Position numbers and translations under genes: made by a program. Shown piece by piece: positions 3,244-61,537 of a stretch of DNA of 64,000 bases. Within the stretch, counting starts at the first letter, position 1; every line of letters starts with the position of its first letter. The notes beneath the pieces are model-generated. The model worked only from the letters and a program-made list of their open reading frames with translations. It was not told where the DNA came from and made no database searches. This DNA is from Desulfovibrio sp. JC010 (lineage in GTDB: Bacteria > Desulfobacterota > Desulfovibrionia > Desulfovibrionales > Desulfovibrionaceae): positions 123,331 through 187,330 of the forward strand of contig NZ_VOIQ01000006.1 of NCBI RefSeq assembly GCF_010470675.1, written 5' to 3'.

Positions 3244-4017
3244 TTAGGAAATCAGGCCGTCACGTTTTAGTTCATTTAAATATGATTCATTTCTAGTGTA
3301 CTTTGAATTCAGCTTCGCAACATCCGGATTGTTTTCCAGCAATAGAACTATATCAGAACAAGAAAAGTAAGGGTTGGATGGGAACAGGTGCTCCAGCACT
3401 TCCCGGATGACAGTGAAGTCCTCAGGGTAGTCCACTGTAATGCGCAAGTCGCCTGCAACAGTATCACTATCATTCTGGTATGTTTTCTGTCTAATTCTGT
3501 CTGGGTGCAGGCTCATATAAGTAGTCACATGCTCTCTTTCAGATTCCGTCCGGGCCTCTCTGCATGCAAGGTCCAGTGCGGACCTGGAAAAGATTTCACA
3601 ATCCAGCCCGTGGGGAAAGTCATCTGATGTTCTGCAATATTCTAAATTTTCCGCATAATAATACTCTGCGATGTCGTCACAAATTTTGGGGTCGACGAGA
3701 GGGCAGTCTCCTGTAATCCGCATAATATGTTCGGAACCAAAGTGTTTTGCAGTATCGCCATAACGAAGCAGTACGTCACTTTCACTTCCCCTGAAATATT
3801 TTATATCATTTTTGGCAGCCCAATCGGCGACAATTTTGTCCTGCTCATTCGTCGAGGTTGATAAAATACAATGCCTTACAGACCTGCACCCTTCTAACCG
3901 CTTAAAAACATACCAGATCATGGGTTTTCCCATAATCTGCTGCATTATTTTACCCGGCAGCCTGGTAGATCCCATTCGTGCCTGAACAATTATATCCATA
4001 TTTTTAGGATATTTCAT
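3244..4017 (-). CDS. pseF: SpsF/PseF-type cytidylyltransferase
   Basis: It probably makes the CMP-activated nonulosonic acid from CTP. The family motifs VQARMGSTRLPGK near the N-terminus and ITGDCPLVDP near residue 100 are clear. It is the second such domain in the operon, since the leftmost gene carries another. The frame is open upstream to a TTG at 4032. I prefer the ATG at 4017 (MKYPKNMD), which has GAGGG two bases upstream. That spacing is short, so the start is uncertain, and MDIIVQAR a few codons later is also possible. The pseF symbol rests on context, because SpsF-like enzymes for other sugars look similar. Confidence 0.75.
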   Translation of the reverse strand: MKYPKNMDIIVQARMGSTRLPGKIMQQIMGKPMIWYVFKRLEGCRSVRHCILSTSTNEQDKIVADWAAKNDIKYFRGSESDVLLRYGDTAKHFGSEHIMRITGDCPLVDPKICDDIAEYYYAENLEYCRTSDDFPHGLDCEIFSRSALDLACREARTESEREHVTTYMSLHPDRIRQKTYQNDSDTVAGDLRITVDYPEDFTVIREVLEHLFPSNPYFSCSDIVLLLENNPDVAKLNSKYTRNESYLNELKRDGLIS

Positions 4018-4059
4018 AACCCTCACTACCAATTTAAAATTATGTCCTGCACATACAAC

Positions 4060-4737
4060 TTACCGACATATTTTGTAAAGCAATTGGAATGCTTCCGCGG
4101 CATGGCATCCCGACTGAGTCCCTCTGCGCGCGGCAAGATTTTCGATCATCTCCACACTTCGCGGGGCAGGATACTCCTGCAACTCGGAAGTATAGCATTT
4201 CATCGCCCGTATCTTTTGGGCCATGAAATCTTTAACATCTACAAATAATTGAGGATGAAAAGAGTCTGAAATATTCTGGAAATTCCATTCTGTTGATGAA
4301 AGGACCTCATAGGACCAGACTTCTTTTACACTGCTTCCAGCAAAAGGCCTGGCGGCAGTAACGGTAGCTCTGGAAGTGATGGAGTGATCAACATTGAGGT
4401 CGCCCTGAAAATGGGTATAAATAACAGAGGGTGCAAACAGCTCTATCTGCTTTTCAATGACCTTAATAATCTCAAGCAAAGAAACAGTATCCATTGCATT
4501 GTCAGGAAAGTCATAATGCTCCAGCTCCTCAACTCCGAGAACTGCAGCGGCTTCTTTGCTCTGTTTTCGCAAAAGGCCCAATTGCTCACTGTCGATAGCT
4601 CCACGCGCTCTCAAACCTCCGCCAAGTATTACAATACGGCAGACATCGCCCTTTGCAACATGCCGGGCTATGGTCGCACCGCATCCCAGAACCTCATCAT
4701 CCGGGTGTGCTGCTACAATCAAAGCCTTTTCATTCAC
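4060..4737 (-). CDS. PIG-L/LmbE-family N-deacetylase
   Basis: The protein has 225 residues and the zinc-binding signature AHPDDE (10-15) of the PIG-L family, which removes N-acetyl groups from amino sugars. A second metal motif, HFQGDLNVDH, follows near residues 108-117. The start is GTG (4735-4737), supported by AGGAG 7 bases upstream. In this locus it could deacetylate a 5- or 7-acetamido group and so open an amine for the formyltransferase or GNAT enzyme upstream in the operon. That role is inferred from neighbours. Confidence 0.85.
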   Translation of the reverse strand: MNEKALIVAAHPDDEVLGCGATIARHVAKGDVCRIVILGGGLRARGAIDSEQLGLLRKQSKEAAAVLGVEELEHYDFPDNAMDTVSLLEIIKVIEKQIELFAPSVIYTHFQGDLNVDHSITSRATVTAARPFAGSSVKEVWSYEVLSSTEWNFQNISDSFHPQLFVDVKDFMAQKIRAMKCYTSELQEYPAPRSVEMIENLAARRGTQSGCHAAEAFQLLYKICR

Positions 4738-4757
4738 GATGCATCTCCTTTCGTTAT

Positions 4758-5660
4758 TTAAATCTCGGCAGGATAAAAAGTATCAAAGATGTGACCGCAA
4801 TGCTCTCTAATATATTTTTTTTGTTCCGCATTAAACACCTGTTTGAGTTTATTATCCTTGTCCTTTGTTATTTCAGACCCCACATAGTCAACTCTTGCCA
4901 CCGGTTCGAATATCGGTTCGAGAATATGCTGGGACAGGCCGAGGAATGAAAACATCTCATTTCCGGTCTCAACTAAATTGTTGATAATGTCCTCATAGTG
5001 AATAACTTTAACATTCGGTAAATCTTTTATCTTCAACAGTGTTTTATAGAATTTCAAATACGTATGTACTGCGTGTGGAAGATCATATTGAGGTATAGAG
5101 CGATTATATATTGACGCAATATTTGTGTAAGGATTACGCACTACCATAATTGTTTTTGCATTTGGGTAAGCTGCTAAGACCCAACGAGCACAATGCGTAT
5201 TAGAAGGCGTTTTCTCACCATAACAGGTAATTTCTTCTGACAATTCTCCAGCCATTTGCAGCCAAAGCTCATCCAGCAGATTACGTATGGTCAGCGGCTT
5301 TGTTTTAGCTTTTTGCAATATGGGATAAGGATCTACCCGTTCTCGATATGTTTTCAGCCATGAGCCGTAAACCCCATCCCGAAGAGGAAGATCATATTGT
5401 ATATCCAAAAGCCAAAACATGACCATGGAAACAATATATTTTGTTTGCTGATAACTAAGCGGGACGTTTACGTCAGGTTTTTTGGGGTCAAGAGAACATT
5501 TTCTGGCCAGCATTTCATATGCGCGTTTTGTTTTTTGATAAAGCATGCTGTCAACAAGTATGTGCAAGTTCACGTGCTGGGAAAGCAAGTTGGAAATCAA
5601 AGTTGTACCACTTCTGGCTGGTCCAAAAATAAACATCCGATTCTTTTGCATGGTTCGCAT
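4758..5660 (-). CDS. Sulfotransferase family protein
   Basis: The protein has 300 residues. The PAPS 5'-phosphosulfate loop GPARSGTTLISN lies at 13-24, and the 3'-phosphate motif VRNPYTNIASIYNRS lies near 175-190. Both are signatures of PAPS-dependent sulfotransferases. This suggests that the surface glycan, or a lipid carrier, is sulfated. The gene lies between pseI and the PIG-L gene in the same direction. The start is uncertain: ATG codons at 5660 and 5651 are both possible, and neither has an ideal ribosome site. Confidence 0.82.
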   Translation of the reverse strand: MRTMQKNRMFIFGPARSGTTLISNLLSQHVNLHILVDSMLYQKTKRAYEMLARKCSLDPKKPDVNVPLSYQQTKYIVSMVMFWLLDIQYDLPLRDGVYGSWLKTYRERVDPYPILQKAKTKPLTIRNLLDELWLQMAGELSEEITCYGEKTPSNTHCARWVLAAYPNAKTIMVVRNPYTNIASIYNRSIPQYDLPHAVHTYLKFYKTLLKIKDLPNVKVIHYEDIINNLVETGNEMFSFLGLSQHILEPIFEPVARVDYVGSEITKDKDNKLKQVFNAEQKKYIREHCGHIFDTFYPAEI

Positions 5661-5662
5661 AC

Positions 5663-6727
5663 CTATAGTTGTCCATTACGGAGGTCGTCAGCTAAAAAAT
5701 TCCATGACAGCTGCTCCCTTTCCTCAACATCCACCGACAATTTCCGGCCAACCAGTTTCTCCATTTCAACAGGATGAATGCCGGTGTGCGGACGCTGCAA
5801 ATGCAGATCATCTTCGGAAAGGACTGTCCCCGCCTTCAACGGCCTCGCAGCCACAATACTTCGCCTGAAATCAAGACGGGCTTTGCACTCTTCCTCTCCC
5901 GGCGCAAAGGCACCGTTTCCAAGCATATCAACAGCACGATCCAGCCGGACACGCAATTCTTTTAACTCATCGGGAGTACAAGAAAAAGAATGATCCGGAC
6001 CCGGAAGGGTCCTATCTAAAGTAAAATGCTTTTCCACACAAACGGCACCAAGGGCGACAGCCAGTTCCGCAGCCTCAATCCCCATAGTATGGTCAGAATA
6101 ACCCACAACTTTGCCGAATTTCTTCTTAAGCGACTTGATGCGTAAAAGATTCCCCTGGTTCAATGGTGTCGGATATAGGGATACGCAATGCAGCAGCATG
6201 ACATCGACAGCAGCAAGTTCATCAAGTGCTTTTTCGATTTCCCACTCCTCAGCCATTCCTGTTGATAGTATCACAGGCTGCCCCAGGGTAGCTATGTGTT
6301 TTAAAAGCGGGTAATTTATAAGATCTTCCGAGGCCAATTTTATAGCCGAGACTCCCATTTCCACAAGAAGGTTGGCCGAGGCTTTGTCCGCCGCTGAAGA
6401 AAGAAAATCAACCCCTTTTGACTCAGCATAATTTTTAAGATCCATGTGCCATTCAACCGGCAGTTCCAAACGCTTGAACATGTCATACATCGACTCACGC
6501 ACGACTACGCCGTTTTCTTCATAAGAATACAAAAGATCTTTATCTGACATGAATTCATCTGCTTTAAAACTCTGGAATTTTACAGCATCAGCACCGGCTC
6601 CAACTGCCGCATCTATTGTTTCCAGAGCTAACGCATAATCACCGCCATGGTTGATTCCTATCTCAGCGATAAGATATACGGGACCGCTTTTCCTATCTTC
6701 AATTTCGAAATGTAGTTTATTTTTCAT
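5663..6727 (-). CDS. pseI: Nonulosonic acid synthase (NeuB/PseI/LegI family)
   Basis: It condenses a 6-carbon amino sugar with phosphoenolpyruvate to make the 9-carbon acid. The N-terminal TIM-barrel part has AEIGINHGGD near residue 21, AVKFQSFKADEF, SDHTMGIEA and EKHFTLDR. The C-terminal 60 residues or so form an antifreeze-like SAF domain (VAARPLKAGTVLSEDDL). The length of 354 is typical. The GINHGG and GPDHSFS motifs look more like NeuB/LegI than classical PseI, although the neighbours pseB and pseG point to the pseudaminic route. The ATG overlaps the end of the WbqC-like gene by 11 bases. Confidence 0.87.
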   Translation of the reverse strand: MKNKLHFEIEDRKSGPVYLIAEIGINHGGDYALALETIDAAVGAGADAVKFQSFKADEFMSDKDLLYSYEENGVVVRESMYDMFKRLELPVEWHMDLKNYAESKGVDFLSSAADKASANLLVEMGVSAIKLASEDLINYPLLKHIATLGQPVILSTGMAEEWEIEKALDELAAVDVMLLHCVSLYPTPLNQGNLLRIKSLKKKFGKVVGYSDHTMGIEAAELAVALGAVCVEKHFTLDRTLPGPDHSFSCTPDELKELRVRLDRAVDMLGNGAFAPGEEECKARLDFRRSIVAARPLKAGTVLSEDDLHLQRPHTGIHPVEMEKLVGRKLSVDVEEREQLSWNFLADDLRNGQL

Positions 6728-7508
6728 GATCTGACCTGCGGGTATAAACTATTGGTGTTTCGGATTTATTGACGGCGTCTAACAATTCACTTCTGGTAAC
6801 ATTGTCTGACCGGAGAATCTCTAAACTGTTTTTTCCTGCATTCATCAGCACATCAAGTGTTGAAAGATTGCTTTCGAATTCACCGAACAGTTGATCATAG
6901 CGCGGATGGACATAATCCTGAAAGTGGAGGCTGATCCCTTTTCTGAAAAAAGAGTCGCAATCAATATAATCCTTTCCATGCATGCCCAAAACACAGATGT
7001 TCCCGTTCAGCTTCAGGCAATGATCCAGAACAAGGTCGGACTTCACTCCCTGGAAACCAAATTCGCTCGCTATGACAAGTTCGGTTTCCAGTCCCAGATA
7101 TCCCAGCATATATTTAAGAATTTCATAATTTAACTCATGCAGCCATTCCCATTTTTTATTCAGGAAAAGATTTTCAATAAACTCTGCGTGCTCGGAGTAA
7201 AAAGGAGCCCTTGCATAACATGAGCGGATGGAAAGATAGTGTTTTTTTTGCCAGTGACTTGATGCTTCTATGTCACCTTCTGATTGAATTTTTATGTCAC
7301 GGATTATTTTGCTTTTTGATTTTTTTAAACTTACGGGAACAGTCAGCCGCACCGGACCATGCCCGCCCTTAATGTAATTGCGATTATTCCAGTCCTGCTG
7401 CAGATATTGAACATCATCCATAACCACAAATATATCCGCCAGCGCCACTTTATGAAAAAAACCGAGCCAGGGCATGTATACCGGTTGGTGGCCTGAAATA
7501 ATTTTCAT
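6717..7508 (-). CDS. WbqC-like family protein
   Basis: The protein has 263 residues. Its start, MKIISGHQPVYMPWLGFF, followed by DDVQYLQQDWNNRNYIKG, is the signature of the WbqC-like family found in O-antigen and glycan loci, some of whose members are thought to modify glycan sugars. The ATG at 7508 overlaps the amidohydrolase stop as ATGA, a usual sign of translational coupling, so I preferred it to the ATG three codons upstream. Its biochemical role is not established in the family as I know it. Here it may transfer an acyl or amino-acyl group to the sugar. Confidence 0.8.
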   Translation of the reverse strand: MKIISGHQPVYMPWLGFFHKVALADIFVVMDDVQYLQQDWNNRNYIKGGHGPVRLTVPVSLKKSKSKIIRDIKIQSEGDIEASSHWQKKHYLSIRSCYARAPFYSEHAEFIENLFLNKKWEWLHELNYEILKYMLGYLGLETELVIASEFGFQGVKSDLVLDHCLKLNGNICVLGMHGKDYIDCDSFFRKGISLHFQDYVHPRYDQLFGEFESNLSTLDVLMNAGKNSLEILRSDNVTRSELLDAVNKSETPIVYTRRSDHEK

Positions 7509-50173: not shown

Positions 50174-51049
<876 letters not shown>

Positions 51050-51187: not shown

Positions 51188-51532
51188 ATGATCATGGTGA
51201 GAGCAATTGTAAGACCGGAAAAAGCGGACGACGTACTGGCCGCGCTCATGGACAACGGCTACCCCGCAGTAACCAAATATTCCGTTGCAGGCCGCGGTAA
51301 ACAGCGCGGCATCAAAATCGGCGAAGTAACCTACGACGAAATCCCCAAAACCATGCTCATGAGCGTGGTCAAGGCTGAAGATAAAGACTTCGTAATCAAC
51401 ACCGTAATGGACGCGGCAAGATCCGGCGCAAAAGGCGCGTTCGGTGACGGTAAAATTTTCGTAACCGAAGTTGAAGACGTCTACACAATCAGTTCCGGTG
51501 TAAACGAAGCGGCCCCGGCAGAGGAGGCTTAG
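51188..51532 (+). CDS. nifI1: PII-like regulator NifI1
   Basis: The protein has 114 residues of the PII family (MIMVRAIVRPEKADDVLAAL, VTKYSVAGRGKQRGI, GAKGAFGDGKIFVTEVEDV). NifI1 and NifI2 of methanogens, Firmicutes and sulfate reducers bind nitrogenase and block it when ammonium is present, sensing 2-oxoglutarate and ATP. The gene position between nifH and nifD is the usual one. The stop is one base before the nifI2 start. Confidence 0.95.
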   Translation: MIMVRAIVRPEKADDVLAALMDNGYPAVTKYSVAGRGKQRGIKIGEVTYDEIPKTMLMSVVKAEDKDFVINTVMDAARSGAKGAFGDGKIFVTEVEDVYTISSGVNEAAPAEEA

Positions 51533-51533
51533 C

Positions 51534-51908
51534 ATGAAAGAGGTCATCGCAGTTGTGCGGATGAACATGATGAACCGCACCAAAAACGCCCTCACCGAAG
51601 CGGGCATAGATGCTTTCTTCGCCCACGAGGCACAGGGCCGCGGAAAAGGTTTTGTAAACGCTGCAGTACTTGAGGGCGCGGAAGAAGGCTACGAAGAAGC
51701 CGCCGCAGTCCTCGGTGAAAAAGGCAAGCTCTACCCCAAACGCATTCTGACAGCTGTTGTTCCCGAAGAATCAGTCAGCGCAGTGGTGGAAGAAATCATC
51801 AAGGTCAACAAAACCGGAAAACCCGGTGACGGCAAGATATTTGTCTGCCCCGTAGGCGACTCTGTCAGGGTCAGAACCGGAGAAACAGGCGCGAAGTCCA
51901 TCGCCTAA
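51534..51908 (+). CDS. nifI2: PII-like regulator NifI2
   Basis: The protein has 124 residues. MKEVIAVVRMNMMNRTKNAL and TAVVPEESVSAVVEEIIKVN, with the loop around FAHEAQGRGKGFVNAAVLEG, mark the second PII-like partner. It forms a complex with NifI1 that turns nitrogenase off after ammonium addition. It overlaps no gene but is spaced tightly, with nifD starting 18 bases on after AGGAG. Confidence 0.95.
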   Translation: MKEVIAVVRMNMMNRTKNALTEAGIDAFFAHEAQGRGKGFVNAAVLEGAEEGYEEAAAVLGEKGKLYPKRILTAVVPEESVSAVVEEIIKVNKTGKPGDGKIFVCPVGDSVRVRTGETGAKSIA

Positions 51909-51926: not shown

Positions 51927-53564
51927 ATGAGTAGCAAGACCAAAGTGGTGCAGTGGGACCCGGCGGACATCAAGGATGAACTTCTGAAGAAGTATCCGCC
52001 GAAAGTTGCCCGCAAGCGCGCCAAACAGATTATGATCAACGAAGCGACCGAAAGCGAAGCACCGCCTGAAATAGTCGCCAACGTCAGAACCATTCCCGGT
52101 ATCATCACCATGCGCGGCTGCACCTATGCAGGCTGTAAGGGCGTTATCATGGGCCCCACCCGCGACATCGTGAATATCACCCACGGTCCCATCGGCTGCG
52201 GATTCTATTCCTGGCTGACCCGCCGCAACCAGACCTCTGCCGGCCCTGACGGCGAGAACTACATGCCCTACTGCTTTTCCACGGACATGCAGGATCAGGA
52301 CATTATCTTCGGCGGTGAAAAGAAGCTCGAAGCAGCCATTCAGGAAGCTTACGACCTCTTCCATCCCAAGGGCATCTGTATCTTCTCCACCTGCCCGGTA
52401 GGGCTGATCGGTGACGATGTTCACGCCGTTGCCAAGAAGATGAGAGAAAAATTCGGCGACTGTAATGTCTTTGCCTTCTCCTGTGAAGGTTACAAGGGTG
52501 TTTCCCAGTCTGCCGGTCACCATATCGCAAACAACGAAGTTTTCACCCATCTGGTGGGAACCAATGAAGAACCGCGCAAAGAAGAATACAAGATCAACCT
52601 GCTCGGTGAATACAACATCGGCGGCGACGGTTTCGAGATCGACCGTGTCCTTAAGAAATGCGGCATCACCAACATCGCAACCTTCTCCGGCAACTCGACC
52701 TATGACCAGTTCGCCTCGGCCCAGCACGCGGACCTCAGCTGTGTAATGTGTCACCGCTCCATCAACTACGTGGCCGACATGCTGGAAACCAAATACGGCA
52801 TCCCGTGGATCAAGGTTAACTTCATCGGCGCGGAAGCAACTGCCAAGTCCCTGCGTAAAATCGGCGAATACTTCGGCGACAAAAAACTCATCGACAAGAT
52901 CGAAGCAGTGATTGCCGAGGAACTCCCCGAAGTCGAAGCCATTGCCAAGGACGTGCGTTCCCGCACTGAAGGCAAAACCGCCATGCTCTTTGTCGGTGGC
53001 TCCCGTGCACACCACTATCAGGAACTGTTCAATGAAATGGGCATGAAGACCCTTTCCGCAGGTTACGAATTCGGACACCGCGATGACTATGAAGGCCGCC
53101 GTGTAATCCCGGACATCAAAGTGGACGCGGACTCCCGTAACATTGAAGAGCTCGATGTTGAAGCTGATGAAAAATACTACAAGCCGCGCAAAACTCCTGA
53201 AGAGATCAAAGCACTTGAGGATGCAGGCTACGAATTCAAGCACTACGACGGGCTGAACCCGGACATGGATAAAGGCTCAATCATTATTGACGACCTGAAC
53301 CAGTACGAAGCTGAAAAACTGGTGGAACTGCTCAAACCTGACCTTTTCTGCGCGGGCATCAAGGAAAAGTACTCCATCCAGAAGCTGGGCGTACCCATGA
53401 AACAGCTGCACAGCTACGATTCCGGCGGACCATACGCAGGATTCAAGGGCGCGATCAACTTTTACAAGGAAATCGACCGCCTCGTAGGCAGCAAGGTCTG
53501 GAGCTACATGAAGGCCCCGTGGCAGGAAAACCCCGAGCTCACCGCCACTTTCGTGTGGGAATAA
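51927..53564 (+). CDS. nifD: Nitrogenase molybdenum-iron protein alpha chain NifD
   Basis: The protein has 545 residues. It binds the iron-molybdenum cofactor and shares the P-cluster with NifK. TMRGCTYAGCKGVIMGPTRD, HGPIGCGFYSW and FSTCPVGLIGDD carry P-cluster Cys, and QLHSYDSGGPYAGFKG near the C-terminus holds the cofactor-binding His. It is longer than the proteobacterial type by about 50 residues, with the extra segment in the 350-430 region, as in clostridial and methanogen forms. Confidence 0.97.
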   Translation: MSSKTKVVQWDPADIKDELLKKYPPKVARKRAKQIMINEATESEAPPEIVANVRTIPGIITMRGCTYAGCKGVIMGPTRDIVNITHGPIGCGFYSWLTRRNQTSAGPDGENYMPYCFSTDMQDQDIIFGGEKKLEAAIQEAYDLFHPKGICIFSTCPVGLIGDDVHAVAKKMREKFGDCNVFAFSCEGYKGVSQSAGHHIANNEVFTHLVGTNEEPRKEEYKINLLGEYNIGGDGFEIDRVLKKCGITNIATFSGNSTYDQFASAQHADLSCVMCHRSINYVADMLETKYGIPWIKVNFIGAEATAKSLRKIGEYFGDKKLIDKIEAVIAEELPEVEAIAKDVRSRTEGKTAMLFVGGSRAHHYQELFNEMGMKTLSAGYEFGHRDDYEGRRVIPDIKVDADSRNIEELDVEADEKYYKPRKTPEEIKALEDAGYEFKHYDGLNPDMDKGSIIIDDLNQYEAEKLVELLKPDLFCAGIKEKYSIQKLGVPMKQLHSYDSGGPYAGFKGAINFYKEIDRLVGSKVWSYMKAPWQENPELTATFVWE

Positions 53565-53576
53565 GGAGATTTAGAC

Positions 53577-54950
53577 ATGTTACTCAGACACACACCCACA
53601 GAAATCAAAGAACGCAAGTCACTGGTCGTCAACCCGGCCAAGACCTGTCAGCCCATCGGCGCAATGTATGCCGCGCTGGGAATCAAAGGCTGCCTGCCTC
53701 ATTCCCACGGTTCACAGGGCTGCTGTGCCTACCACAGGTCCATGCTGACCAGACACTATAAAGAACCCGTTTCCGCAGCGACCAGCTCCTTTACCGAAGG
53801 GGCATCTGTCTTCGGCGGACAGGCCAACCTTATTCAGGCCATCAACAACATCTTCACGGTTTACGAACCGGAAGTGATCGCAGTGCATACCACCTGCCTT
53901 TCCGAAACCATCGGTGATGACCTTAAACAGATCGTCACCAAGGCCACCAAGGACGGCAAGATCCCCGAAGGTAAAACCGTATTCGGCGCACCGACTCCCA
54001 GTTACGTGGGATCGCACGTCACCGGTTTCTCCAACATGGTTAAAGCCATGGCCCAGCTGGCTGAGCCTTCTTCAGAGAAGAACGGCAAAGTCAACATCAT
54101 CCCCGGCTGGGTGGAACCCTGCGACATGGAAGAGATCAAACGTCTCTGCTCCATGATCGGCGTGGACACCACCATGTTCCCGGATACCTCCGGTGTGCTC
54201 AACGGTCCCCTTAGCGGTGAATACAAGATGTTCCCCGATGGCGGCGTGACCATCAAGGAGCTCAAAGAATCCGGACAGGCTACCGGAACCATCGCCCTCG
54301 GTGAATGGTGCAGCGCAGACGCGGCCCGCTGGCTGGATTCCAAGCACAAGGTTCCCTGTACCGTGCTGGATATGCCCTTCGGCCTGAAAGCAACCGACCG
54401 TTTTATCGATGTACTGCGCACTGTGGCCGGAGTTTCCATCCCCGATTCCATCTCCTACGAGCGTGGACAGCTGGTGGACCTCATCTCCGACATGCACCAG
54501 TACTTCTACGGCAAAAAGGTCGCCATCTTCGGTGATCCCGACCAGCTCATTTCCATGGTGGAATTCCTCCGTTCCATCGATATGTGCCCGGTCTACGTCG
54601 TTACCGGTACCCCCGGCAAGAAGTTCGAAAAACGGATCAAGGAACTCACTGCCGACATGCCTTACGAATGCAAGGTCAAAGCAAAGGGCGACATGTTCCT
54701 CATGCACCAGTGGATCAAGAACGAGCCTGTGGACCTGCTCATGGGTAACTCCTACGGCAAATACATTGCCCGCGACGAAGACATACCGTTCCTGCGCTGG
54801 GGATTCCCCATCACTGACCGTCAGGGGCATCAGTACTTCCCCACCGTGGGTTACAAGGGCGGCCTGAGACTGCTGGAAAAAATTCTCGGACTGCTGCTGG
54901 ATCGCAAAGACCGCGATTCCCCCGAAGAAACATTCGAACTCGTACTTTAA
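53577..54950 (+). CDS. nifK: Nitrogenase molybdenum-iron protein beta chain NifK
   Basis: The protein has 457 residues. NPAKTCQPIGAMYAALG, HGSQGCCAYHRSMLTRH and HTTCLSETIGDD carry P-cluster Cys, and GTPTPSYVGSH-like segments are conserved. The N-terminal extension of the long proteobacterial type is absent, as in anaerobes. A repeat element follows the stop directly. Confidence 0.97.
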   Translation: MLLRHTPTEIKERKSLVVNPAKTCQPIGAMYAALGIKGCLPHSHGSQGCCAYHRSMLTRHYKEPVSAATSSFTEGASVFGGQANLIQAINNIFTVYEPEVIAVHTTCLSETIGDDLKQIVTKATKDGKIPEGKTVFGAPTPSYVGSHVTGFSNMVKAMAQLAEPSSEKNGKVNIIPGWVEPCDMEEIKRLCSMIGVDTTMFPDTSGVLNGPLSGEYKMFPDGGVTIKELKESGQATGTIALGEWCSADAARWLDSKHKVPCTVLDMPFGLKATDRFIDVLRTVAGVSIPDSISYERGQLVDLISDMHQYFYGKKVAIFGDPDQLISMVEFLRSIDMCPVYVVTGTPGKKFEKRIKELTADMPYECKVKAKGDMFLMHQWIKNEPVDLLMGNSYGKYIARDEDIPFLRWGFPITDRQGHQYFPTVGYKGGLRLLEKILGLLLDRKDRDSPEETFELVL

Positions 54951-54960
54951 TTACCAGTAG

Positions 54961-55050
54961 GCCTCCGGCGGCCCTGCCGGGGGCCTCAAACCCTTTTGGA
55001 AAAAGGGTTTAAGAATCCCAAAACTTTTTAATAGGGCTTCGCCGCTTTTT
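54961..55050 (-). repeat. Intergenic palindromic repeat, copy 2 (inverted)
   Basis: It lies between nifK and the NifB-like gene. The order is reversed relative to copy 1: GCCTCCGGCGGC first, then the hairpin AAACCCTTTT (54988-54997) and AAAAAGGGTTT, then AAGAATCCCAAAAC and GGGCTTCGCCGC. The ribosome site AAGGAG of the next gene overlaps its end. Confidence 0.87.
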
Positions 55051-55062
55051 AAGGAGAAACCG

Positions 55063-56202
55063 ATGACTACCTCATCCTCACACCCCTGTTTCGGACCTTC
55101 CGCCCGCGCTTCCGTAGCCCGTGTTCACCTTCCGGTTGCTCCCAGAACTTTTTGCAGAACCAATTTTGCGCCCATGACTAAACAGCCTGCGGCAATTATG
55201 CCCGAAGATGCGCTGAATATGCTTGATGAGCTGATCGAATCCGGCAAAAAAATCAAAGTTGTGGGCATCACCGGTCCCGGCGATCCGCTGGCTAATTTCG
55301 AAGCCACTTACAAGACCCTGAAACTGGTCCGCGACAAGTACCCGCGCATGTCCCTCTGCCTGACTACTCTGGGTATAAACGGCGAAAAGTACGCTGAAAA
55401 ACTGGCAGAACTTAATATTTCCCACATCACTGTTCTGGTGGACGCGGCGGATTCAGCTACCGCCGAAAAAATCTATGCATGGATTCGCCCGTCAACCAAG
55501 AATGTCCCCCTGCCCGAAGCCTGCAAGCTGCTCATGAAAGAACAGGCCGCAGCTATCAGGGCATTCAAGGAAGCAGGACTGACCGTGAAGGTCAACACAA
55601 CAATTTACAACGAAAACATAGACCAGATTGAACACATTGCCATTGCAGCAAAAACACTGGACGCGGATATCATGGGCCTGATTCCTTTCATCCCGTCCAC
55701 TGAATCCGAAGATAACGAATTTTCCGCAGTGAGTGACGAGCAGATTGCAGAAGCCCGTAAACTCGCCGCAAAACATATTGCACTGATGGAGCCGTGGCCC
55801 AGATGTGGAGCATCCATTGAACTGGAAAAACCGAAATCAAGTACCATGCCCAGCCCTAGCAAAAGCCGCCCCAATGTAGCGGTGGCAAGTTCCAGCGGTA
55901 TGGATATCGATATGCATCTGGGTCACGCCCATAAACTCATGATTTTCGGCCCCCGTGCAGACGGTCTGGCCTGCCTGCTTGAAACAAGAGAGACCCCGGA
56001 ACCGGGCGGCGGGGAATCCCGCTGGGAAAAGCTGGCTGAACTGCTGGATGACTGCTTCGTGCTGCTCTGCGCCTCGGCTGGCAAGAATCCCAGAAAAGTA
56101 CTTTCCGCCAACGGCATCAGGATAATCCTGACTGATGAAAACGTAGAAGGCACTGTCGACGTCCTCTACGGCGGCGGCAAAAAAGGCAAGTGCAAGAAGT
56201 AA
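55063..56202 (+). CDS. NifB-like/NifX-like fusion protein lacking radical SAM cysteines
   Basis: The protein has 379 residues, an intact frame with AAGGAG upstream. It aligns by eye to NifB encoded at 60272: HPCF, RVHLPVAP, GITGPGDPLANFEATYKTL, CLTTLG, SHITVLVDAAD, KIYAWIRP, IPFIPSTE. The NifB motif CNIQCNYC is replaced by TFCRTNFA, so all three cluster ligands are lost. One Cys of the later CxxC pair is also missing (PWPRC). The C-terminal 110 residues or so are a NifX/NafY-like cofactor-binding domain (NVAVASSSGMDIDMHLGHA). It likely binds or hands on cofactor precursors without radical chemistry. Confidence 0.85.
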   Translation: MTTSSSHPCFGPSARASVARVHLPVAPRTFCRTNFAPMTKQPAAIMPEDALNMLDELIESGKKIKVVGITGPGDPLANFEATYKTLKLVRDKYPRMSLCLTTLGINGEKYAEKLAELNISHITVLVDAADSATAEKIYAWIRPSTKNVPLPEACKLLMKEQAAAIRAFKEAGLTVKVNTTIYNENIDQIEHIAIAAKTLDADIMGLIPFIPSTESEDNEFSAVSDEQIAEARKLAAKHIALMEPWPRCGASIELEKPKSSTMPSPSKSRPNVAVASSSGMDIDMHLGHAHKLMIFGPRADGLACLLETRETPEPGGGESRWEKLAELLDDCFVLLCASAGKNPRKVLSANGIRIILTDENVEGTVDVLYGGGKKGKCKK

Positions 56203-56219: not shown

Positions 56220-56304
56220 AAAGCGGCGAAGCCAAACTAAAAAAGTTTGGGATTCTTAAACCCTTTTCAAAGGGTTTAAGGCCCCCGGCAGGGTCGCCGA
56301 AGGC
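56220..56304 (+). repeat. Intergenic palindromic repeat, copy 3
   Basis: It has the same order as copy 1: AAAGCGGCGAAGCC, GTTTGGGATTC, hairpin arms CTTAAACCCTTT (56255-56266) and AAAGGGTTTAAG (56269-56280), then GGCCCCCGGCAGGGTCGCC. It lies between the NifB-like and 2Fe-2S genes. Confidence 0.87.
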
Positions 56305-56358: not shown

Positions 56359-56661
56359 ATGGCTACCCCCGAAAGAATGATCATCTGTTGTCAGAGTTTC
56401 CGCGCTGCGGGCGACCCCAAAGGCATCTGCCACAAGCAGACCGATGGATTCCTGCAATACATCGAAGAAGAAACCATCGACCGAGGTCTCGACGCTCTGG
56501 TGGTGGCCACTAGCTGTCTGAAGCAGTGTGACAACGGTCCCATCCTCGTGATCCAGCCGGAAAACTGGTGGTTCAAGGGTGTGGACTCAGAGGAAAAGAT
56601 CGACGAAATCCTCGACGGCCTTGAAGACGGAGAACCCTGCGCAGATTACCTGCTGGATTAA
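56359..56661 (+). CDS. Thioredoxin-like [2Fe-2S] ferredoxin-family protein
   Basis: The protein has 100 residues. IICCQSFRAAGDPKGIC and SCLKQC give the Cys pattern (two early, two in CxxxC) of the thioredoxin-like 2Fe-2S ferredoxins, such as those associated with nif genes. It probably gives electrons to nitrogenase or takes part in cofactor assembly. GAGGAG lies upstream of the ATG. It follows the NifB-like gene and repeat copy 3. Confidence 0.86.
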   Translation: MATPERMIICCQSFRAAGDPKGICHKQTDGFLQYIEEETIDRGLDALVVATSCLKQCDNGPILVIQPENWWFKGVDSEEKIDEILDGLEDGEPCADYLLD

Positions 56662-56725: not shown

Positions 56726-57193
56726 ATGCCGGCCACAGTTCATATCCGTAACGCCAACTCCGCTGATCTGGTTCCGATGACCGATCTGCTGAAATCTCTT
56801 TTCTCCGTCGAGAAGGACTTTTTAGTGGATGGAAGCAGACAGATGCAGGGTTTAAGGATGCTGCTGGGCAATCCCCGGGCACGCATCCTTGTTGCAGAAG
56901 ATATGGACAAAAATATGGGTGAAGTGGTCGGCATGTGCACCGGTCAGATTGTAATCTCAACTGCTGAAGGCGGCCCGTCCATCCTAGTGGAGGATGTGGT
57001 TGTGCGCAGCGATCATCGGGGAAAGGGGATCGGCACCATGCTTATGGAAGCCATTCTCGGATTCGCAGAAGAACAAAGAGCAACACGGCTGCAACTACTG
57101 GCAGACTGCGAAAACACCTCGGCCCTGAAATTCTACGAAAAGATCGGCTGGTCTGAAACCAACCTGATCTGTCTTCGCAAGATGAACGCATAG
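56726..57193 (+). CDS. GNAT-family N-acetyltransferase inside the nif operon
   Basis: The protein has 155 residues. VEDVVVRSDHRGKGIGTML is the acetyl-CoA loop of GNAT enzymes, followed by LQLLADCENTSALKFYEKIGW. GAGGGAG stands a few bases before the ATG. Genes of this kind are not core nif genes. Its fixed place between the 2Fe-2S gene and nifE suggests acetylation of a nif protein, a small molecule or an antibiotic-like compound. The substrate is not evident. Confidence 0.85.
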   Translation: MPATVHIRNANSADLVPMTDLLKSLFSVEKDFLVDGSRQMQGLRMLLGNPRARILVAEDMDKNMGEVVGMCTGQIVISTAEGGPSILVEDVVVRSDHRGKGIGTMLMEAILGFAEEQRATRLQLLADCENTSALKFYEKIGWSETNLICLRKMNA

Positions 57194-57208: not shown

Positions 57209-58570
57209 ATGAATGAATATACAATTTTAGAAGAACGCAAAGACCAGATCCACCGCACGGGCGAGGGAGCACTGGACATGGCCTGCAACCGGGAATCACT
57301 CGCCGGGGCAGTAAGCCAGAGAGCCTGTGTTTTCTGCGGTTCGCGGGTGGTGCTATACCCCATCGCAGACGCCCTGCATCTGGTCCACGGTCCTATCGGC
57401 TGTGCAGTTTATACCTGGGATATCCGCGGCGCGCTCTCCAGCGGCCCGGAACTGCACCGCCTCTCATTCTCCACCGACCTGCAGGAAACCGACGTAATCT
57501 TCGGCGGAGAGAAAAAGCTTGAAGCGGCCCTTGATGAACTCATCGACCGCCACAGTCCCAAGGCCGCATTCGTTTACTCCACCTGCATTGTGGGCATCAT
57601 CGGCGATGACCTTGAAGCGGTCTGTAGAAAGATGAGCGAGAAGAAAGGAATTCCCGTACTTCCGGTCATGTCCGAAGGTTTCAAGGGCAGCAAGCGCGAG
57701 GGCTACCTCGCCGCCTGCAAAGCCATGTTCAAACTGGTGGGCACCGAAGAAACGTCCGACATTTCCCCTCTTTCCGTAAACATCTTGGGCGACTTCAACC
57801 TTGCCGGGGAAATCTGGATCATCCGCGAATATTTCAGAAAGATGGGGGTGGAAGTCGTTGCCAACATTACCGGTGACGGACGTGTGAAGGATATCGGGCG
57901 CAGCCACGGGGCGGCCCTGAATCTTGTACAGTGTTCGGGTGCGACATTGGACTTGGCAAAAATGATGAAAGAGGAATACGGCACGCCCTTTATGCGCGTA
58001 TCCTACCTCGGCATCGAAGACATGGCCGATTCCCTCTATCAGGTTGCTGATTTCTTCAAGGATGTCGACCCGGACATTGTCAAACGCACGGAAGATCTCG
58101 TCCGCGACGAACTCTCCAAGCTCATGCCCGAACTGGCCCGCATGCGCAAAGATCTCGAAGGCAAGAAAGTCGCCATGTACGTGGGCGGTTCCTTCAAGGC
58201 TTTCTCCCTGCTCAAGGCTTTCCGCCACTTGGGCATGAAAGTAGTCATGGTCGGTTCCCAGACCGGAACCAAGGAAGATTACGCTGAACTGGAACGCATC
58301 TCCGATCCCGGCACCATCTTAGTTGATGACGCCAACCCGCTGGAATTGTCCGCATTCATTAAAGAAAAGGACGTGGACATATTCGTCGGCGGCGTAAAAG
58401 AACGGCCCATCGCCTTCAAGATGGGAGTCGGATTCTGCGATCACAACCACGAGCGCAAGGAAGCCCTGGAAGGTTTCGTAGGCATGCTCAATTTCGCCCG
58501 CGAAATTCACGCTTCAGCAATGAGCCCGGTCTGGAACTTTGTTCCTCGAAGAGCGAAGAAACAGATTTGA
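57209..58570 (+). CDS. nifE: Nitrogenase cofactor scaffold protein NifE
   Basis: The protein has 453 residues and is homologous to NifD. With NifN it forms the scaffold on which the NifB product matures. RACVFCGSRVVLYPIADALH, HGPIGCAVYTWDIRG and YSTCIVGIIGDDLEAVCR show the conserved Cys, and VGGVKERPIAFKMGVGFCDHN is typical of NifE. A short T-rich hairpin repeat begins in its stop codon. Confidence 0.96.
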   Translation: MNEYTILEERKDQIHRTGEGALDMACNRESLAGAVSQRACVFCGSRVVLYPIADALHLVHGPIGCAVYTWDIRGALSSGPELHRLSFSTDLQETDVIFGGEKKLEAALDELIDRHSPKAAFVYSTCIVGIIGDDLEAVCRKMSEKKGIPVLPVMSEGFKGSKREGYLAACKAMFKLVGTEETSDISPLSVNILGDFNLAGEIWIIREYFRKMGVEVVANITGDGRVKDIGRSHGAALNLVQCSGATLDLAKMMKEEYGTPFMRVSYLGIEDMADSLYQVADFFKDVDPDIVKRTEDLVRDELSKLMPELARMRKDLEGKKVAMYVGGSFKAFSLLKAFRHLGMKVVMVGSQTGTKEDYAELERISDPGTILVDDANPLELSAFIKEKDVDIFVGGVKERPIAFKMGVGFCDHNHERKEALEGFVGMLNFAREIHASAMSPVWNFVPRRAKKQI

Positions 58571-58681: not shown

Positions 58682-58754
58682 CGCTGGCGAAGCCAAACTA
58701 AAAGGTTTTGGGATTCTTAAACCCTTTTGCAAAAGGGTTTAAGCCGCCGGAGGC
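58682..58754 (+). repeat. Intergenic palindromic repeat, copy 4
   Basis: It is the same unit as copy 1, including a perfect 28-base palindrome (58716-58743). It starts CGCTGGCGAAGCCAAAC and ends GCCGCCGGAGGC, next to the nifN ribosome site. Confidence 0.88.
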
Positions 58755-58768
58755 ACAGGAGTTCAAAT

Positions 58769-60127
58769 ATGACTACCAAAAGCAAAAATTATACATCGAC
58801 CACTAATGCCTGCAAACTCTGCACACCTCTCGGCGCATCACTGGCCTTTCGAGGTGTGGAAGGCTCCGTTCCCTTCCTGCACGGCTCACAGGGCTGCGCC
58901 ACTTACATGCGCCGCTATGTGATCAGCCATTTCCGTGAACCTGTGGATATCGCTTCTTCCGCACTGGGTGAAAAGCACGCTGTATACGGCGGCGGCCCGA
59001 ATCTTAAAAAGGGCATCCTGAACGTAATGAAGAAGTACGAGCCGAAGATCGTGGGTGTGGCGACCACCTGCCTCACCGAAACCATCGGTGATGACGTCCC
59101 CATGTATCTCAATGAATTCCACAAAGAATTCGGAGATCTTGATCTACCGGACATAGTGCAGGTTTCAACCCCCAGTTACAACGGCACCCATATGGACGGC
59201 TGGCACGGCGCGGTGCGTTCCATGGTCGAACAGCTCTGCACTGAAAAGGCGGAAAACGACGGACATGTGAACATCCTGCCAAATCTAGTTTCCTGTGAAG
59301 ATGTGCGCCACCTATTTGATATCTGCGAGGACTTCGGCCTGAAGGCGACCATCCTGCCTGATATTTCCGAAACCCTCGATGGTCCGGCACTGGAAGATTA
59401 CATGAAGATTCCGGTGGGCGGAACTCCGGTGGAAGAAATCAAGAAAATGTCCGGCGCGGCTGCCACCATCGAGCTGGGCCGCTGTGTACCTACCAAGAGC
59501 GGCGGAACCAGCCTTGAAGAGCGGTTCGGGGTGACCAACCACCGTATCGGTTTGCCCATGGGTATCCGCGAATGCGACAAACTCTTCGAAACCCTTGAAA
59601 CTATTTCCGGCAAAGAGATGCCCGCCCGTTACCAGCGCGAACGGGGTAGGCTCATCGATGCCTACGTGGACGGACACAAATACATCTTCGGCAAGCGGGC
59701 TGTTGTTTACGGCGAGGAAGACCTCGTAACCGGGCTGTGCGCATTTCTGGCTGAGATCGGCGTGGATGTGATCCTTGCCGGGTCCGGGGCCAAGAAAAAA
59801 GGTATGGCTGAAGCCATCACAGCCGTAACTGAAGGCGTGGGCCGCACCACCCCGGAGATCCACGAAGGCGTTGATTTCCACGACATCGCCGAACGGGCCG
59901 GGGGACTCAAACCCGACCTGCTCATCGGCCATTCCAAAGGCTACCGCTACGCTAAAGCATGGAACATCCCGCTCATCCGGGTAGGCTTCCCGGTCCATGA
60001 CCGCTTCGGCGGACAGCGTATCCCCACTCTCGGCTACAAGGGCACGCAGTACCTTTTCGACCTCATCGTCAACGCCATGCTCGAAAAGAAACAGGCCGAT
60101 AACCCGGTCGGTTACGGCTACATGTGA
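58769..60127 (+). CDS. nifN: Nitrogenase cofactor scaffold protein NifN
   Basis: The protein has 452 residues and is related to NifK. With NifE it forms the cofactor maturation scaffold. NACKLCTPLGASLAFRGVEG, HGSQGCATYMRRYV and TTCLTETIGDD are typical. I chose the ATG at 58769 (MTTKSKNY), with CAGGAG 7 bases upstream. The longer open frame to 58727 runs into repeat copy 4 and is unlikely. Confidence 0.95.
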   Translation: MTTKSKNYTSTTNACKLCTPLGASLAFRGVEGSVPFLHGSQGCATYMRRYVISHFREPVDIASSALGEKHAVYGGGPNLKKGILNVMKKYEPKIVGVATTCLTETIGDDVPMYLNEFHKEFGDLDLPDIVQVSTPSYNGTHMDGWHGAVRSMVEQLCTEKAENDGHVNILPNLVSCEDVRHLFDICEDFGLKATILPDISETLDGPALEDYMKIPVGGTPVEEIKKMSGAAATIELGRCVPTKSGGTSLEERFGVTNHRIGLPMGIRECDKLFETLETISGKEMPARYQRERGRLIDAYVDGHKYIFGKRAVVYGEEDLVTGLCAFLAEIGVDVILAGSGAKKKGMAEAITAVTEGVGRTTPEIHEGVDFHDIAERAGGLKPDLLIGHSKGYRYAKAWNIPLIRVGFPVHDRFGGQRIPTLGYKGTQYLFDLIVNAMLEKKQADNPVGYGYM

Positions 60128-60271: not shown

Positions 60272-61537
60272 ATGAAAGATACCACCAAACATCCGTGCTT
60301 TAACAAAGAAACCGCAGGCTCCTGTGGACGTGTACATCTCCCGGTAGCCCCCAAGTGCAACATTCAGTGCAACTACTGCAACCGCAAATATGATTGCGTG
60401 AACGAATCTCGTCCCGGCGTGACCAGCGGTGTGCTCAAACCTTTTCAGGCTGCGGAATATATGGACGCAGTGCTGGAAAAAGAACCGCGCATCACCGTGG
60501 CCGGTATCGCAGGTCCCGGCGACCCCTTTGCCAACGCGGAGGAAACTCTGGAAACCATGCGACTGCTCAATAAAAAACACCCGCAGCTGATCTTCTGTCT
60601 GTCATCCAATGGCATGGGCATCCTGCCATATCTGGATGACCTGAAGGAGCTTGGCGTATCCCACGTGACCATCACCATCAGCGCGGTAGACCCGACCATC
60701 GGTGCGAAAATTTATTCATGGGTCAAGGACGGCAAGGTAGTCTACCGCGGCGAAAAAGGCGCGAAAGTGCTGCTGGAACGCCAGCTTGCAGCTATCAAAG
60801 GGCTGAAGGAACGGGGCATTACCGTGAAGGTCAATTCCATTGTCATCCCCGGCATCAACGATCATCACATAGCTGAAGTAGCCCGCGTGGCGGCGGAACT
60901 GGGCGCGGACATCCAGAACATGATCCCGCTCAAACCTACAGCTGAGACTCCTTTCGCTGAACTTGAAGAACCGGGAAAGAAGCTTGTGAACTCCCTGCGC
61001 AAGGAAGCGGGCGCAGTCATTGAACAGATGACCCACTGCCGCCGCTGCCGTGCTGACGCTGTCGGTTTGCTGGGCGACGATAAATCCGTGGCTCTCTGCG
61101 GCACCCTGAAATCATGCTCCGAACTGAAACCCATTGATGTGAAAGGTCCGCGCCCGTATGTGGCGGTTGCTTCCCGCGAAGGCATGCTGGTCAACCAGCA
61201 TCTTGGCGAAGCAAGGGAATTCCACATCTGGGCCGAAGATGGAGAAGGTTTCAAGCTCGTTGAGAAACGTCCCGCCCCTAAAGCCGGATGCGGTCCGCAG
61301 CGTTGGACCGACCTTGCAGCAACGCTCAGTGACTGTCGCGCAGTGCTTGCGGCTGCCATCGGGGAAACCCCGCAGGTAAAGCTGGCTGAAAACGGCGTGC
61401 AGCCGCATGTAATCGGAGGGTTCATTGAGGACGCGCTGACGACTATTTACAGCGGCGGAAACATGGATATCCATAAGGGACGGCGCGGCTCTATCGCTGA
61501 CGCCTGCTGTACCGGAACGGGAACCAAGTGTGGGTAG
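60272..61537 (+). CDS. nifB: Nitrogenase cofactor biosynthesis protein NifB with NifX-like domain
   Basis: The protein has 421 residues. This radical SAM enzyme makes the iron-sulfur precursor (NifB-co) of the nitrogenase cofactor. CNIQCNYC binds the SAM cluster. HPCFN, CVNESRPG, CLSSNGMG and HCRRCRADAVG supply ligands for the extra clusters. The C-terminal part (VAVASREGMLVNQHLGEA, from about 290) is a NifX/NafY-type domain. AAGGAG lies before the ATG. It is the last gene of the operon and precedes two hairpins. Confidence 0.97.
   Translation: MKDTTKHPCFNKETAGSCGRVHLPVAPKCNIQCNYCNRKYDCVNESRPGVTSGVLKPFQAAEYMDAVLEKEPRITVAGIAGPGDPFANAEETLETMRLLNKKHPQLIFCLSSNGMGILPYLDDLKELGVSHVTITISAVDPTIGAKIYSWVKDGKVVYRGEKGAKVLLERQLAAIKGLKERGITVKVNSIVIPGINDHHIAEVARVAAELGADIQNMIPLKPTAETPFAELEEPGKKLVNSLRKEAGAVIEQMTHCRRCRADAVGLLGDDKSVALCGTLKSCSELKPIDVKGPRPYVAVASREGMLVNQHLGEAREFHIWAEDGEGFKLVEKRPAPKAGCGPQRWTDLAATLSDCRAVLAAAIGETPQVKLAENGVQPHVIGGFIEDALTTIYSGGNMDIHKGRRGSIADACCTGTGTKCG

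Follow-up and report, generated by a model that had tools for sequence, protein, structure and literature searches.

We analysed a window of 64,000 nucleotides, meaning the whole stretch of DNA studied here, from what is probably a sulfate reducer. The window contains a nif operon in the order nifH-nifI1-nifI2-nifD-nifK-[gene 55063-56202]-ferredoxin-GNAT-nifE-nifN-nifBX, with the following genes:

50222-51049, + strand: nifH (match to the annotated D. vulgaris gene)
51188-51908, + strand: nifI1 and nifI2, P-II type regulators (match to annotated D. vulgaris genes)
51927-53564, + strand: nifD (match to the annotated D. vulgaris gene)
53577-54950, + strand: nifK, next to the paralogue on its upstream side in each of the 79 loci
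55063-56202, + strand: NifB-derived protein without a radical-SAM motif, 379 amino acids, the finding described here
56359-56661, + strand: [2Fe-2S] ferredoxin-like protein, downstream neighbour in 79 of 79 loci (NCBIfam matches below cut-off and D. vulgaris annotation)
56726-57193, + strand: GNAT-type acetyltransferase, a frequent but not constant member of the cluster
57209-58570, + strand: nifE
58727-60127, + strand: nifN, start codon uncertain (324.5 bits, just under the cut-off of 326.8)
60272-61537, + strand: canonical NifB-NifX fusion, all ligands present

The GNAT-type acetyltransferase gene (56726-57193) lies inside the operon and recurs in many, though not all, related clusters. Inverted copies of an intergenic repeat flank the paralogue (54961-55048 and 56220-56304), with arms of 36 and 48 nucleotides that are 90-92% complementary. 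The repeat core occurs five times in the window, always in nif intergenic gaps, and at least 40 good copies are found genome-wide.

The open reading frame at 55063-56202 encodes a NifB-NifX-type protein with zero internal stops that is 33% identical to the operon's own NifB. Alignment to this canonical fusion (60272-61537) placed T29, T33 and A36 at the three radical-SAM cysteine positions, and showed the deletion of a loop that holds ExRP and one more conserved cysteine. The later CxxC reads W245/C248, with one cysteine left. The original prediction of an intact gene that has lost CxxxCxxC and one cysteine of the later CxxC, in a nif operon with a canonical NifB-NifX fusion, was therefore confirmed. 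No Cx3Cx2C motif is present at this site or elsewhere in the sequence. Among the motifs listed for NifB (PMC5715403), ExRP and Cx2CRxDAxG are absent and the second Thr of TxTxN is replaced by L125; the operon's own NifB reads TITIS here, and the last position is thus not strict. The altered site is:

55147-55170, + strand: former CxxxCxxC site, residues 29-36, now T/T/A, with the ExRP/Cys loop after the site deleted (alignment)

Judged from these changes, the protein has no normal means of binding a radical-SAM cluster, and very probably cannot make NifB-co.

The NCBIfam nifB model (TIGR01290) matched the protein with an E value of 7e-49 and 166.7 bits, below the family cut-off of 343.65; the canonical neighbour scored 398.5. 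The Radical SAM model PF04055 gave 43 bits (cut-off 29.5) despite the lost cluster motif, and PF02579 (Nitro_FeMo-Co) gave 41.7 bits (cut-off 26.3) over residues 280-362. The NifX model TIGR02663 (cut-off 112) did not list the protein; in a search of its own genome this model matched the canonical NifB alone, with 30.2 bits.

Over the whole genome (C6:46746-48935 and other places), PF02579 gave nine matches, eight of them above cut-off, and three lie close together outside the nif region. A 284-residue NifB-like radical SAM protein is encoded on another contig (L150, 6729-7583); it has both CxxxCxxC and CxxC and ends before any NifX-like domain. Its gene neighbours, named by eye, are a probable periplasmic binding protein and a polyferredoxin-like membrane protein. 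Searching the genome with NifD turned up NifE, NifN and NifK but no further NifD-type protein, and we therefore rejected the idea that the paralogue serves an alternative nitrogenase.

We then modelled the protein with AlphaFold2 from a 45-sequence alignment (mean pLDDT 88.8, pTM 0.72). The model matched the NifB crystal structures 6y1x, 7bi7, 7jmb and 7jma with Z scores of 28.8-29.9 over 211-246 residues, in a comparison that barely touched the NifX-like domain. The protein is thus predicted to keep the NifB barrel fold. The C-terminal part of the model matched NifEN-bound NifX (9ian_F) with a TM-score of 0.61 by target (Foldseek). Residues 248-250 and 255-260 were modelled with low confidence, and a flexible linker thus probably tethers the NifX-like domain. 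In the alignment with NifX (9ian_E), His285 falls on chain position 35. These features are:

55081-55803, + strand: NifB-type barrel domain, residues 7-247 (fold predicted to match NifB crystal structures)
55867-56178, + strand: NifX-like domain (PF02579), residues 269-372
55915-55917, + strand: His285, aligned to NifX His35, which coordinates NifB-co; kept in 79 of 79 (alignment; PMC13128457)

In MthNifB, the fused [8Fe-8S] cluster is reported to be held by bridging Cys18, Cys115, His31, Cys260 and Cys263 (PMC9692996). Trp245 occupies the position of Cys260 in the paralogue, and the other four of these five ligands are kept (alignment to 7bi7; roles from PMC9692996):

55087-55089, + strand: Cys9, equivalent to MthNifB Cys18 (MaNifB Cys30), bridging K-cluster ligand, kept
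55126-55128, + strand: His22, equivalent to MthNifB His31 (MaNifB His43), K-cluster ligand, kept
55357-55359, + strand: Cys99, equivalent to MthNifB Cys115 (MaNifB Cys129), K-cluster ligand, kept
55804-55806, + strand: Cys248, equivalent to MthNifB Cys263, second Cys of the late CxxC, kept

Orthologues were collected in two steps. Searches of 199 genomes of the window's family, its own included, and of GTDB contigs yielded 66 distinct proteins from the slot between nifK and the ferredoxin gene after removal of identical cores; the rows examined were free of internal stops among the matches listed. Fifty-eight of these slot proteins came from at least 58 of the 199 genomes, and eight from GTDB contigs with names, which belong to Desulfobulbaceae, to Desulfocapsaceae or to bins that carry the label Deltaproteobacteria or Proteobacteria. 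In the window's genus, all 13 genomes with any match, its own included, have the paralogue, and three more listed genomes gave no match. A search of 395 genomes of the phylum, with flanks fetched, enlarged the set to 79 slot proteins, all distinct, alongside 75 canonical NifBs, excluding duplicates identical over residues 21-300, the window genome's own short loci (L001-L003) and other short loci (L102-L129). Sequence alone picked out 72 of the 79, and position helped with the remaining seven (L056, L057, L060, L061, L064, L097 and L101). The 79 were taken from open frames, a procedure that broken copies would escape; five NifB-type matches with internal stops were seen among the phylum matches listed.

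The order nifK, slot gene, ferredoxin gene on one strand was found in all 79 loci, and nifE or nifN lay on the fetched stretch in 65 of them, four loci being too short to tell. The radical-SAM motif is missing from 75 of the 79 proteins, and no CxxxCxxC occurs anywhere in those 75. Homologues with the same loss and the same nif context, which the original prediction had suggested looking for, are thus common, and a loss shared by 75 of 79 distinct orthologues excludes a sequencing error at this locus. The possibility that the cysteines are merely shifted failed for these 75 proteins, but four sister proteins in the same slot do keep CxxxCxxC at the canonical position. Retention of the three SAM-cluster cysteines among the 75 was 0.00/0.04/0.03, that of the loop cysteine 0.00, of the E, R and P of ExRP 0.00/0.01/0.04, and of the second TxTxN Thr 0.00. 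With the motif, the loop and a TxTxN Thr gone throughout, radical chemistry is very unlikely in these proteins.

The gene is absent from some nif clusters. On a D. vulgaris L2 plasmid, nifK is followed directly by the ferredoxin gene, and nine loci of the family (L083, L084, L086, L089, L091, L094, L095, L098 and L099) are likewise without the paralogue. These ten clusters indicate that the gene is accessory or dispensable. L098 and L099 belong to genus g21, where other genomes have the paralogue, so that it was probably lost in these two. The nine came from a set of 20 loci, of which three have the gene (L097, L100 and L101) and eight show nifENB only on the stretch that was fetched. D. vulgaris DP4 and RCH1 gave one match each. 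All nif-cluster genes with data are reported to matter for growth on N2 in D. vulgaris Tn-seq (PMC10102598); we rejected this as evidence for the paralogue since the nif cluster on the D. vulgaris plasmid is without it, and we infer the same for the Hildenborough strain.

A careful tree of 58 proteins separated 28 NifBs from 30 slot proteins by a branch with a support of 100/100. Within the slot proteins, the four that keep CxxxCxxC (L056, L057, L060 and L064) formed one clade (100/100) and the 26 motif-less proteins the other (97/84). Two quick trees, with 87 and 99 rows, agreed and gave the motif-less clade an SH-aLRT of 88. The slot clade nested among the family's NifBs in the quick 99-row tree; in the careful tree it was unresolved near the root, with a foreign NifB (L143) as weak sister (90/91). 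The L143 protein, which we counted as a NifB, is encoded in a nif cluster at 3371-7388 in which an apparent NifE-NifN fusion is followed by a canonical NifB directly before a ferredoxin gene. Slot proteins from other families nested inside the clade in both trees, several as long branches, and in the quick 99-row tree the NifBs of those families did not group with the NifBs of the window's family. The NifB of the D. vulgaris plasmid grouped within the latter, by which the window's family is very probably Desulfovibrionaceae. Our claim on the origin of the duplication goes no further than the slot clade being a single one.

The losses in the two clades are opposite. The four motif-keeping proteins have all three SAM-cluster cysteines and the loop cysteine, and all four have lost the equivalents of MaNifB Cys30 and Cys129; two of them are also without His43 and the late CxxC. 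Given the ligand roles described in PMC7145814, PMC6053413 and PMC9692996, either loss, that of the SAM cluster or that of the K-cluster ligands, should end NifB-co synthesis. The four proteins (L060, L064, L056 and L057) might still cleave SAM.

Conservation differed sharply between the two domains. In the barrel, 5.7% of columns were at least 95% conserved among 66 slot proteins versus 31.3% among 60 NifBs, while the share in the NifX-like domain was 23.1% in both. For 41 loci with both genes, mean pairwise identity was 0.433 (barrel) and 0.568 (NifX-like domain) in the slot protein, and 0.681 and 0.604, respectively, in NifB. Constraint has therefore largely gone from the barrel and is about unchanged in the NifX-like domain. 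Among positions with at least 97% conservation in NifB, the 72 in the barrel showed a median retention of 0.54 in the 75 motif-less proteins, and the 22 in the NifX-like domain a median of 0.99 (mean 0.71). The statement that the protein keeps many shared blocks holds for the window's protein, which has HPCF, RVHLPVAP and GPGDP as canonical NifB-NifX does, but a large share of the orthologues have lost HPCF and many other residues of the barrel.

Within-genus comparisons gave dN/dS values for the paralogue of 0.090-0.223 in the barrel (19 of 21 pairs computable) and 0.034-0.214 in the NifX-like domain (21 of 21 pairs). For NifB the values were 0.026-0.081 and 0.049-0.103, respectively (8 of 15 pairs computable each); all were obtained by the Nei-Gojobori method, and dS was close to saturation in several cases. 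Purifying selection thus acts on both domains of the paralogue, though less strongly than on NifB. The earlier view that the gene is selected rather than decayed held up, with dN/dS of about 0.03-0.22 over both domains and a slot conserved across the window's family and found in other families. A decaying pseudogene or an artefact would fit the absence of the gene from some nif clusters and the lower conservation of the barrel, but dN/dS well below 1, the fixed slot and the lack of internal stops among the matches listed (in a set built from open frames) make this explanation extremely improbable. Sequencing error, frameshift and pseudogene were rejected on the low dN/dS and on the sharing of the loss by 75 of 79 proteins. 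We also compared 40 canonical NifBs from genomes with the paralogue and 18 from genomes taken to lack it, although for eight of the latter the genome may still have it. The comparison showed a single marginal column and an NifX-like domain that was not relaxed, and we rejected the idea that canonical NifB is altered according to the presence of the paralogue.

The NifX-type His is present in 79 of 79 slot proteins, and in 75 of 75 NifBs as well. In Azotobacter NifX, this residue is reported to bind the apical Fe of NifB-co, as seen in the NifEN-NifX complex; NifY and NafX are described as having kept the NifX fold and lost the histidine, so that retention of the His is not automatic (PMC13128457). 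The residues beside the His are N (75 of 75) and E (70 of 75) in NifB. In the slot proteins they are D in 72 of 79, with N kept in seven, and H or Q in 76 of 79; Azotobacter NifX has D and S at these positions. The last eight residues carry a net charge of +2 to +6 in 73 of 79 slot proteins, compared to -1 to +1 in all 75 NifBs.

Taken together, these results make it fairly probable that the protein descends from a duplicated NifB-NifX fusion, is catalytically dead and now acts as a carrier of a cofactor precursor of the NifX/NafY kind. The near-total loss of catalytic parts in 75 motif-less orthologues, the invariant His in a NifX-like domain as conserved as in NifB, the dN/dS values and the unbroken gene order all argue for a carrier. 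So do the shift of the residues beside the His away from the NifB type and the basic tail, which recalls the positively charged pocket reported for NifX (PMC13128457). The suggestion that the protein is a carrier or scaffold for cofactor precursors is therefore supported, and sharpened by the constraint on the NifX-like domain and its NifB-co-binding His. In such a scheme, the true NifB next door would make NifB-co, the 8Fe precursor, which the paralogue's NifX-like domain would take over through His285 and hand on, most likely to NifEN and less likely, as the finished cofactor, to NifDK. The dead barrel may serve as a docking module for partners and could perhaps park the cluster; in the ligand-keeping subset its four K-cluster ligands, taken over from NifB, might form a second site. 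These last two roles are weaker inferences; the cargo, the partners and the direction of transfer are proposals too.

NifEN as the receiver is suggested by the precedent of NifX, and by the lack of a stand-alone NifX above the curated cut-off of TIGR02663 in 37 genomes of the family (20 with the paralogue, nine shown to lack it and eight not settled), although none of 14 control genomes passed either, which makes this a weak test of absence. This model gave relatives of the paralogue scores below cut-off only. As no stand-alone NifX passed in these 37 genomes, we rejected the idea that one replaces the paralogue where it is missing; the open reading frames in the ferredoxin-nifE gaps of L089 and L091 included nothing recognisable as NifX. 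Several observations count against a carrier. The gene is not required in the nine family nif clusters and the D. vulgaris plasmid that lack it, and TIGR02663 does not list the window's protein. As all 75 NifBs share the His, it points to cluster handling in general. NifB, moreover, already has a NifX-like domain, whose deletion in Klebsiella reportedly did no harm (PMC5715403).

The tie of the paralogue to nifDK points to NifDK as the receiver, and leads to another branch of the carrier idea that overlaps with it. Here the protein would be a NafY-like insertase or stabiliser that holds open apo-NifDK and delivers finished FeMo-co, serving NifDK and not NifEN. Every one of the 79 loci links it to nifK. 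Of 75 informative loci, moreover, 10 have the slot gene with nifHDK and no nifE or nifN in at least 7 kb downstream, and no slot gene was found among the 79 loci with nifEN and away from nifK. The 99-row tree, with other-family members inside the clade and their NifBs apart, suggests that the nifHDK module moved with the gene. NafY itself is described as joining a targeting domain to a tethered cofactor domain (PMC13128457). The paralogue has no NafY-type N-terminal domain, however, seven of the 79 were picked with help of position, and the position of a gene can be historical; we consider this branch possible but rather unlikely.

A protein that carries no cluster at all would also account for part of the data. 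As a regulatory or structural partner of NifB, it would be a pseudoenzyme within a NifB complex or a competitor that tunes NifB-co flux; a regulator of NifB had been raised in the original prediction. Such a role agrees with the predicted NifB fold, with the 12 of 75 proteins that have none of the four barrel ligands, and with the proposal that NifX-fold proteins without the His are placeholders or antagonists (PMC13128457). Since it gives no reason for an invariant NifX-type His or for an equally conserved NifX-like domain, we regard it as unlikely.

Counts of the K-cluster ligands bear on what the barrel may contribute to a carrier. All four are kept in 33 of the 75 motif-less proteins (the window's included), three in 6, two in 17, one in 7 and none in 12. 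The figure of 33 compares with 12.1 expected under independence, a weak test as the 33 are related by descent. Singly, the four ligands are retained at 0.73/0.63/0.57/0.61, and the other 62 conserved barrel positions at a median of 0.55 (quartiles 0.09-0.84). We therefore rejected a special protection of the ligands across the whole family. They may matter in the four-ligand subset, but cannot be what the whole slot family shares.

An active enzyme with a different chemistry, or a scaffold that feeds [4Fe-4S] K-clusters to NifB, could be read from the 33 four-ligand proteins and the four sisters that keep CxxxCxxC. The SAM motif, the loop and the TxTxN Thr are gone in 75 proteins, though, and ligand retention is patchy and no higher than that of other barrel residues, so that we find this improbable. 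The more elaborate form of the carrier is a two-site relay in which, within the ligand-keeping subset, the former active site (Cys9, His22, Cys99 and Cys248) would grip the 8Fe cluster from NifB and the His285 domain would pass it to NifEN or NifDK. This is doubtful, being weakened by the retention of the ligands at about the rate of other conserved barrel residues, and the 12 proteins with no ligand count against a barrel site. If the relay were true, the sister clades would have destroyed opposite halves of the NifB active site and kept only the shared carrier function.

Nitrogenase assembly still has an open question in the passage of the fragile 8Fe precursor between NifB, NifEN and NifDK. 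The slot proteins provide a natural separation of function, in which NifB chemistry has been removed and what may hold or pass the cluster is left, and a NifB barrel that is inert towards SAM could help to trap the cluster. They also carry a warning for annotation, as counts of nifB genes here include a protein very probably unable to make NifB-co.

For this group, we found no report in the open-licence PMC literature of a NifB paralogue that lacks the motif. Arragain et al. (2017) are described as having excluded 28% of 390 putative NifBs, most for lacking Cx3Cx2C, each with a NifX domain and judged to be misannotated NifX (PMC5715403). Like the slot family, these are annotated as NifB, lack the motif and have a NifX domain, and slot-family members may be among them; the account of the excluded proteins in PMC5715403 names no species. 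'Misannotated NifX' would be half right for the slot family, whose best-kept part is NifX-like, yet which has the whole predicted NifB fold and a single origin. The nif clusters of Pseudodesulfovibrio, a sulfate reducer, similarly have two nifB genes, nifB_1 and nifB_2, in one cluster with ferredoxin and P-II genes (PMC11505543). Unlike here, they are annotated as two NifBs, and the description of the clusters makes no mention of motif loss; one of them is presumably the slot gene. The slot family consists of real, conserved and selected NifB pseudoenzymes, probably already in print as 'nifB' copies, and is new as a variant.

Compared to NifB (TIGR01290), the 55063-56202 protein has the same predicted fold and domain order, 33% identity and four of the five fused-K-cluster ligands, but lacks CxxxCxxC, the ExRP loop and the second TxTxN Thr, has one Cys of Cx2CRxDAxG, and scores below the family cut-off. 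It resembles NifX (TIGR02663) in a NifX-like domain where the His that binds NifB-co is preceded, two positions earlier, by a D. NifX is small, however, whereas this domain is tethered to a dead NifB barrel and is not listed by the NifX model. As in NafY, the FeMo-co chaperone for apo-NifDK, a C-terminal cofactor-binding NifX-like domain follows another domain, and the gene lies beside nifDK; the N-terminal module, however, is a modelled NifB barrel and not the sterile-alpha-motif domain of NafY.
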